A DNA stretch of 64,000 nt, from contig NC_009976.1 in the NCBI RefSeq assembly GCF_000018585.1, positions 186,001 to 250,000 on the forward strand, in the 5' to 3' direction. The notes beneath the pieces were generated by a model. It saw nothing but the letters and a program-made list of their open reading frames with translations, had not been told where the DNA came from and did no database searches. Source of the stretch: Prochlorococcus marinus str. MIT 9211 (GTDB taxonomy: Bacteria > Cyanobacteriota > Cyanobacteriia > PCC-6307 > Cyanobiaceae). Numbering within the stretch: the first letter of the stretch is position 1; each line of letters starts with the position of its first letter. Of the stretch, positions 3,427 to 4,830 are shown piece by piece. Position numbers and translations under genes: made by a program.

Positions 3427-3506
3427 GTGAGCATGATTCTTTGAAGATCATCCCATGTGCGTCAACTTTGCTTATAGTTTCTTAAGTGACTTTTGACTTT
3501 TAAGAA

Positions 3507-4635
3507 TTGCAAGATCTGTCAGATTTCAAACGAGACCTCTCTGTACTTACTAAGCGCCTGGGCAATGCTCAGGACTGTCTTTGACGTTCCAGCATTAAAT
3601 GCACTAAGGAAAGATCTGGAACAGATTGCTTCTCAACCTGAATTTTGGAATGATCAGCAGAAGGCGAAGAAAGAGATGAGAAGGCTTGATGAAGTCAAAG
3701 CGCAGTTAAAGAAATTGGTTGACTGGGATGCGGCTATAGAAGATGCACAAGTTTCACTGGAGTTATATGAGCTTGAGCCAGATGATGAGATGCTTGCTGA
3801 GGCGATTAAAGGGTTAGATAACTTGAAATCTGATCTTGATCTTTGGGAGCTTGAACGTCTTTTGAGTGGTCAATACGATAAAGAGGGAGTCGTTTTATCG
3901 ATTAATGCAGGAGCAGGTGGGACTGATGCACAAGATTGGGCACAAATGCTTTTAAGGATGTATACCCGCTGGGCAGATGATCATGGTATGAAAGTAACTG
4001 TAGATGAGCTCTCTGAAGGAGAAGAAGCAGGGATTAAAAGTGCGACCTTGGAGATTGACGGCCGCTATGCCTATGGATATTTACAAAACGAGAAGGGGAC
4101 GCATCGTTTAGTGAGAATTTCTCCTTTTAATGCAAATGGTAAACGTCAGACAAGTTTTGCCGGTGTAGAGATTATGCCTAAACTTGAAGAAGAAGTTGAG
4201 TTAGATATTCCTGAAAAGGATTTGGAGATTACTACTAGTCGCTCTGGAGGAGCGGGTGGCCAAAATGTTAATAAAGTAGAAACGGCGGTACGCATTGTTC
4301 ACCTTCCATCAGGTTTGGCAGTTCGTTGTACACAAGAACGCTCTCAATTGCAAAATAAAGAAAAAGCTATGGCATTGCTTAAAGCAAAATTGATGATTAT
4401 TGCGCAAGAACAACGAGCCTCTCAGATAGCAGATATAAGAGGTGACATTGTCGAAGCAGCATGGGGCAATCAAATTAGAAATTATGTGTTTCATCCATAT
4501 CAGATGGTTAAAGATCTACGCACTGGCAAGGAATCAACTGATGTTGAGGGAGTTATGAATGGAGATCTAGACCCTTTTATTCAGGCTTTGCTCTTAAAAG
4601 GTATAGACAATAAACAGAATGATCATGAGAATTAG
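3507..4635 (+). CDS. prfB: peptide chain release factor 2, expressed by programmed +1 frameshift
   Basis: The main frame carries RF2 signatures: the SPF stop-codon recognition tripeptide ([12 protein letters not shown]) and the catalytic GGQ in [13 protein letters not shown]. The N-terminal helix is encoded in another frame. From TTG at 3507 (TAA lies in frame at 3501) it reads 25 codons, with residues [20 protein letters not shown], and meets TGA at 3582 directly after CTT. Slipping on CTT-T-GAC moves ribosomes into the main frame at GAC 3583 (DVPALN). The CDS is therefore join(3507..3581,3583..4635), 375 residues, close to the usual RF2 size. An AGGA just upstream (3571-3574) may stimulate the shift. 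RF2 reads UGA, so the site gives autoregulation as in Escherichia coli. A continuous-frame TTG at 3493 would give an N-terminus unlike RF2. Confidence 0.93.
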
Positions 4636-4638
4636 TTA

Positions 4639-4830
4639 ATGACTGAAAACTCTTTTTCAAAGACTTCTTCTGCAAAGAAGACCCCACCACCAAGCTTTGT
4701 CAAATTGGCTATGAAAAATATGGTAAGGAAGGGAAGTCAGAGCCTTTTTCATTTTGGGTTGACAGCCATTGGGTTTATAGGATTTATTTTAGTGATTGCT
4801 GCCCTCGGCAGACCAAACCTTCCACAGTAA
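4639..4830 (+). CDS. DUF3285 small membrane protein
   Basis: This 63-residue protein has a polar, lysine- and proline-rich start, a conserved PPPSFVKLAMKNMVRKGSQS block, and one hydrophobic segment at about residues 39-58. That arrangement matches DUF3285, a cyanobacterial family of unknown function. It starts 4 nt after the prfB stop and is followed by ybeY after 8 nt, so it is co-transcribed in a translation-related run. Nothing in the sequence reveals a biochemical activity. Confidence 0.8.
   Translation: MTENSFSKTSSAKKTPPPSFVKLAMKNMVRKGSQSLFHFGLTAIGFIGFILVIAALGRPNLPQ

Follow-up and report, generated by a model that had tools for sequence, protein, structure and literature searches.

The prfB locus

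The DNA analysed here, called the window throughout, is a stretch of 64,000 nucleotides from the genome of Prochlorococcus marinus str. MIT 9211 and contains prfB, the gene for release factor 2 (RF2), in two frames joined at a slip site (Table 1). The zero frame is closed by TGA (3582-3584) directly behind CTT (3579-3581), and the body of RF2 opens in the +1 frame with GAC at 3583, an arrangement that had been proposed in a sequence-only reading of the window and that is confirmed on the sequence. The early in-frame UGA is found likewise in 189 of 189 relatives, as is the CTT, and here the CTTT is followed by a C after the stop codon; at one locus of a relative (L215) a G follows the TGA. The heptamer CTTTGAC by itself is unremarkable, being present 17 times in the window as compared to 11.2 expected occurrences, so that the role of chance must be assessed through homology and the significance of the site comes from its conservation.

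The genome, a single contig of 1,688,963 bases, contains one prfB, a single gene that fits the family at its RF1 end, and a single short GGQ protein. Among named sequences the closest relatives of the RF2 protein come from Prochlorococcus and marine Synechococcus. Between prfB and ybeY an open frame for 63 amino acids (4639-4830) matches no NCBIfam family.

Table 1. Features of prfB and its frameshift region in the window.
Feature	Position	Strand	Basis
prfB zero frame, 25 codons, TTG start, ending at the UGA	3507..3584	+	sequence; start position and homologous peptide recur in relatives
Hairpin 5' arm CCTGGGC (from last base of Arg codon through Leu CTG and Gly GGC)	3557..3563	+	comparison, covariation
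Hairpin loop AAT	3564..3566	+	comparison
Hairpin 3' arm GCTCAGG, ending 5 nt before CTT	3567..3573	+	comparison, covariation
Residual SD-like AGGA, overlapping hairpin 3' arm, nearer to CTT by 1 nt than the hexamer of E. coli	3571..3574	+	sequence, anti-SD duplex energy
E-site codon TGT	3576..3578	+	locus comparison
Slip site CTT-TGA-C; tRNA-Leu would move from CTT to TTT, followed by GAC	3579..3585	+	sequence, conservation
RF2 body, +1 frame, stop codon (4633-4635) included	3583..4635	+	sequence, profile match, solved-structure alignment

Evidence for an obligatory +1 frameshift

Is the frameshift necessary for the synthesis of RF2? In picocyanobacteria, 80 named loci have CTTTGAC at exactly the homologous codon, each time after the same zero-frame peptide, and the heptamer was likewise found there in 189 of 189 prfB loci extracted from Cyanobacteriia, a set composed of picocyanobacteria and of genomes drawn across the class. 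Together with 10 loci added later from genomes that fail a stricter pattern (see below) this amounts to 199 of 199. The upstream start codon is also conserved, as TTG or GTG 25 codons before the stop codon in picocyanobacteria and elsewhere mostly as ATG at a distance of 24-25 codons. Residues 3-363 of the fused protein align with residues 2-362 of a solved RF2 (chain of 9fy1), and the fused protein scores 470.9 bits with the RF2 profile (TIGR00020, cut-off 370), starting at profile position 4.

A continuous reading of RF2 from the TTG at 3493, with no frameshift at all, has next to no chance of being right. The frame is indeed open in this genome, and the corresponding protein scores 467.5 bits from profile position 8, slightly lower than the fused form. 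However, in 91 of the 189 relatives the continuous frame runs into a stop codon before any start codon, a stem variant with CCTGAGC places a TGA in that frame, and it is the zero-frame N-terminus that matches the solved RF2, in line with the earlier suspicion that the continuous call produces an N-terminus unlike that of RF2. As a general mode of expression the continuous reading is excluded by the relatives lacking a usable start codon. Since these relatives could not translate RF2 continuously and the site is conserved in all 199 sequences, the +1 programmed frameshift appears obligatory. The proposal that prfB needs a +1 shift at CTT-T-GAC thus holds, with exact coordinates, a slip site universal in the class and an RF2-like zero-frame N-terminus, and comparison of the loci strongly supports the dependence of prfB in this genome on the obligatory shift at CTT-TGA-C. 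The RF2 frameshift as such is known biology, of which this site is a member of a well-known kind; by analogy to the known RF2 system, UGA-sensing autoregulation would follow.

A weak Shine-Dalgarno element at the slip site

In E. coli the prfB site reads AGGGGG-TAT-CTT-TGA-C (PMC13245932), and in a survey of 12,753 genomes the Shine-Dalgarno (SD)-like element three nucleotides before CTTT was described as "hyper-conserved" (PMC12421855). The cyanobacterial gene shares with the autoregulatory frameshift of E. coli and most bacteria the early UGA, the CUU-UGA-C, the body in the +1 frame and the place of the shift in the protein (PMC12421855; review PMC5009743). It differs in what lies upstream: most bacteria have AGGGGG or AGGAGG three nucleotides before CTT, whereas here a hairpin is found together with a weak AGGA one nucleotide closer to CTT. 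The supposed identity with the E. coli site therefore applies to the slip heptamer and does not extend to the upstream stimulator; similarly, the AGGA that had been pointed out just upstream is present but weak, and one nucleotide off the E. coli register.

The nine bases preceding CTT in the window are CAGGACTGT, with AGGA only in place of an AGGRGG three nucleotides before CTT that could pair with 16S rRNA. The predicted duplex of this AGGA with the anti-SD amounts to -3.7 kcal/mol, and averages in the class are -3.7 to -3.9, as compared to -10.3 kcal/mol calculated for the hexamer of E. coli and to -8.25 on average in 28 sequences of sister lineages, non-photosynthetic members of the phylum outside the class Cyanobacteriia, which mostly carry AGGAGG or AAGGAG before the slip site. 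A duplex of -8 or better is found in none of the 199 Cyanobacteriia sequences. AGGA itself is present in 190 of the 199 and lost in nine, which represent five lineages by taxon and sequence. The anti-SD in the 16S rRNA of this genome is an ordinary one (ACCTCCT). As the SD-like element is, according to the survey, a near-universal stimulator and not a defining feature of the frameshift, the site was classified as a variant.

As E-site codon all picocyanobacteria have TGT or TGC (Cys) and other Cyanobacteriia almost always TAT (Tyr), a difference that may alter the stability of the E-site tRNA at the slip. With a single exception, Cyanobacteriia sequences that have Asp at codon position -3 (3573-3575 in the window) encode it by GAC; the third base of this codon (3575) lies outside the stem described below, and the gene otherwise prefers GAT over GAC (23 to 6).

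A conserved hairpin upstream of the slip site

The sequence-only reading had overlooked that a stable hairpin lies just upstream of the slip site, with a stem of 6-7 bp formed by CCTGGGC-AAT-GCTCAGG (3557-3573). In the class as a whole the arms typically read CCTGGG[TCG] and [AG]CC[CT]AGG, separated by a 3-nt loop and ending 5 nt before CTT. A single hairpin pattern matches 366 of 388 genomes of the class and 155 of 160 genera, and the reversed pattern, used as control, gave 0 matches in the genomes listed. Folding energies of -6 kcal/mol or lower were calculated for 198 of 199 sequences, with an average of -11.8, and the equivalent 21 nt of the sister lineages fold at -1.4 on average.

A search of Rfam with the hairpin region returned chance matches only, far below gathering scores. 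A literature search on prfB or RF2 frameshifting in cyanobacteria, Prochlorococcus or Synechocystis, or in connection with a hairpin or stem-loop, did not find the element, which may have been noticed in older work. The word "cyanobacteria" is absent from the main text of the mBio survey (PMC12421855) and from the Pseudomonas study (PMC13245932), and the accessible parts of the review PMC5009743 make no mention of such a hairpin.

Two findings concern individual assemblies. In one genome (L195; G281, contig C196) the hairpin and slip site occur twice on opposite strands, a duplication or an assembly artefact; a partial prfB lies at a distance of about 200 bases from the second copy. Two metagenome-assembled genomes titled Verrucomicrobiales and Bifidobacterium breve (L049 and L081) carry a picocyanobacterial prfB, and these bins are probably contaminated or mislabelled.

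Selection on the stem

Folding of the window sequence taken by itself is not significant (z -1.03), and the case for the hairpin hence rests on comparison. Columns of the gene with at least 98% identical synonymous codons are confined to codons -9 to 0, save for one other column in the picocyanobacterial set. The Leu of the stem is always encoded by CTG and the Gln always by CAG (189 of 189), although the gene mostly uses other Leu codons. In comparison with random synonymous versions the stem in the 21-nt segment of the window has a p value of 0.003, and folding against the synonymous null model reaches p < 0.05 for 90% of the non-picocyanobacterial set, but only for 57% of the GC-richer picocyanobacterial set.

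Moreover, the arms vary together. Pairs 2-4 are invariant in the 189 sequences, pair 5 is G-C in 147, G-U in 22, A-U in 20 and A-C in 0, while at pair 7 C-G and U-A predominate. Fisher tests of covariation, uncorrected for phylogeny, gave 1e-15 for pair 5 and 1e-36 for pair 7. According to parsimony on the gene tree, G was replaced by A four times at pair 5, each time resulting in A-U and twice starting from a G-U state. In an alignment of the 59 distinct sequences 96.4% of the cells are paired, a value that drops to 55% or less if one arm is slid by 1-3 bases, and for these 59 sequences the covariation score exceeds those of all 500 shuffles.

It could be imagined that the inverted repeat is maintained for a role outside of frameshifting, as an mRNA stability or processing element, as target of a small RNA or as an intragenic DNA operator, and the palindromic character of the repeat would suit such a role. 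This seems quite improbable to us, as the spacing to the slip site is constant in every sequence with a standard stem, the stem sits where an SD duplex acts and appears where a strong SD is missing, and no Rfam family was matched. The tolerance for G-U pairs together with the absence of A-C fits RNA rather than DNA, for which reason the DNA operator was rejected. Taken together, the synonymous constraint, the covariation, the breadth of occurrence and the exceptions discussed below show that the hairpin is an RNA structure under selection.

Exceptions to the pattern

Among the genomes that do not match the hairpin pattern ten had a readable prfB and were examined; the others yielded no complete prfB. 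In four of the ten (L237-L239 and L241) the stem is preserved through U-G pairs and in two (L235 and L240) with a bulge, three (L232, L233 and L236) have an intact or extended stem with an altered SD, and one (L234) has a weak stem (-3.7) and lacks AGGA as well. Of the nine sequences without AGGA eight have a good hairpin. A hairpin traded for a strong SD was found in 0 of 199 sequences.

These exceptions also bear on the question whether the AGGA still acts as an ordinary SD-type stimulator, with the hairpin merely modulating the shift by competing for the AGG and thereby lowering or tuning its efficiency. Such a division of labor would be consistent with the near-universal retention of AGGA, with the normal anti-SD of the 16S rRNA and with the AAGGAG in the same register in one sister class (f31). 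Still, we consider it unlikely: the predicted pairing with the anti-SD is weak, the hairpin with its average folding energy would be expected to outcompete it, five lineages without AGGA nevertheless retain CTTTGAC, and no sequence has swapped the hairpin for a strong SD.

How the hairpin could promote the shift

How could a hairpin substitute for base pairing with rRNA? Huang and colleagues (2018) placed an engineered hairpin before CUUUGA and found, in an E. coli 70S system, that it stimulated +1 shifting to about 60% of the SD effect, but only in the absence of RF2 and to a smaller degree when the stem was destabilised; they viewed the hairpin as functionally mimicking the SD duplex (PMC6321510). 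Like it, the cyanobacterial element is an mRNA hairpin located directly before the E site at the same CUUUGA; it differs in being natural and class-wide, with a stem of 6-7 bp ending 5 nt before CTT in place of an artificial one of 12 bp. RF2 frameshifting is likewise retained where SD function is altered in Bacteroidia, in which the anti-SD is occluded, albeit the site of Flavobacterium johnsoniae has a perfect SD, AGGAGG (PMC8710568), whereas Cyanobacteriia lack a strong one.

The two frames, the conservation, the covariation of the hairpin, the synonymous constraint and the loss of strong anti-SD pairing are directly seen in the sequences. We infer that the mRNA refolds into the hairpin on the ribosome, that this hairpin promotes the shift and that the site senses RF2. 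By analogy to E. coli, scarcity of RF2 would cause the ribosome to pause with the UGA in the A site, upon which the tRNA-Leu would slip from CUU to UUU and RF2 would be completed, while plentiful RF2 would lead to termination at the UGA. Once both arms have cleared the mRNA channel they could pair again behind the decoding center, and the resulting duplex, located 5 nt before the P-site codon, might favor slippage in the forward direction, probably because the E-site tRNA is lost or because backward movement is blocked.

The presence of the stem in 198 of 199 sequences that lack a strong SD is what would be anticipated had the hairpin assumed the function of the SD, which is consistent with this reading without proving it. 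Some observations count against it. The weak AGGA has been kept in most sequences, though the stem needs the AGG anyway; the stem ends two nucleotides farther from CTT than the E. coli SD, which lies 3 nt before it; the stem is short compared to the engineered one; and L234 combines a weak stem with the absence of AGGA. On balance, the hairpin probably does the job of the Shine-Dalgarno element at the slip, and the comparison of sequences makes it fairly likely that throughout Cyanobacteriia an mRNA hairpin has replaced the SD:anti-SD pairing with rRNA as stimulator of the RF2 frameshift. With slightly less confidence, we would place this swap at the base of the class, regard the hairpin as a natural SD mimic and expect RF2 autoregulation in these organisms to be independent of the anti-SD.

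Release-factor-like genes of phages

When viral contigs were scanned for the motif, three matches were obtained, by a rough estimate about as many as expected by chance, one of which (L262) lies in the correct frame in a phage release-factor-like gene. Among viral loci of this family (L296-L374, IMG/VR contigs) 30 of 79 have CTT-TGA where a +1 shift joins two open frames, as exemplified by L296-L298, L306, L311, L320, L331 and L355, and most of these loci have a strong SD-like sequence, with a mean anti-SD duplex of -6.9 kcal/mol. The genes encode a GGQ motif and, in those read, no N-terminal domain. The shifty stop lies early in the second release factor domain, unlike its position in prfB, and at two different places in different phage groups, which suggests independent gains. 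It appears from these sequences that phage release-factor-like genes use RF2-type shifty stops, and a literature search for shifty stops in phage release factors found nothing.

In L326, L346, L356 and L361 (at about locus position 630), as well as in L305 and L318, the body frame contains an in-frame TGA (GGT-TGA-A), which in four members falls right where relatives have the shifty stop; these phages may decode the TGA as an amino acid, or there may be readthrough of the stop. Dense tRNA arrays lie beside the release factor gene in the three closest phage contigs (L262, L264-L266), with 24 tRNA genes in 13 kb of L262 and 10-11 per 3.3-kb phage locus.

Implications

Recoding driven by pairing between rRNA and mRNA has its textbook example in the prfB frameshift. 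With the frameshift itself already known, what would be new here is the probable exchange of the stimulator, kept across a whole class. If this is true, the ribosome responds to a duplex beside the E site irrespective of the origin of the duplex, and Cyanobacteriia would offer a natural system for studying how upstream duplexes push the frame forward. Programs that depend on the SD motif for finding frameshifts may miss such sites. The finding also bears on the control of RF2 in some of the most abundant phototrophs.
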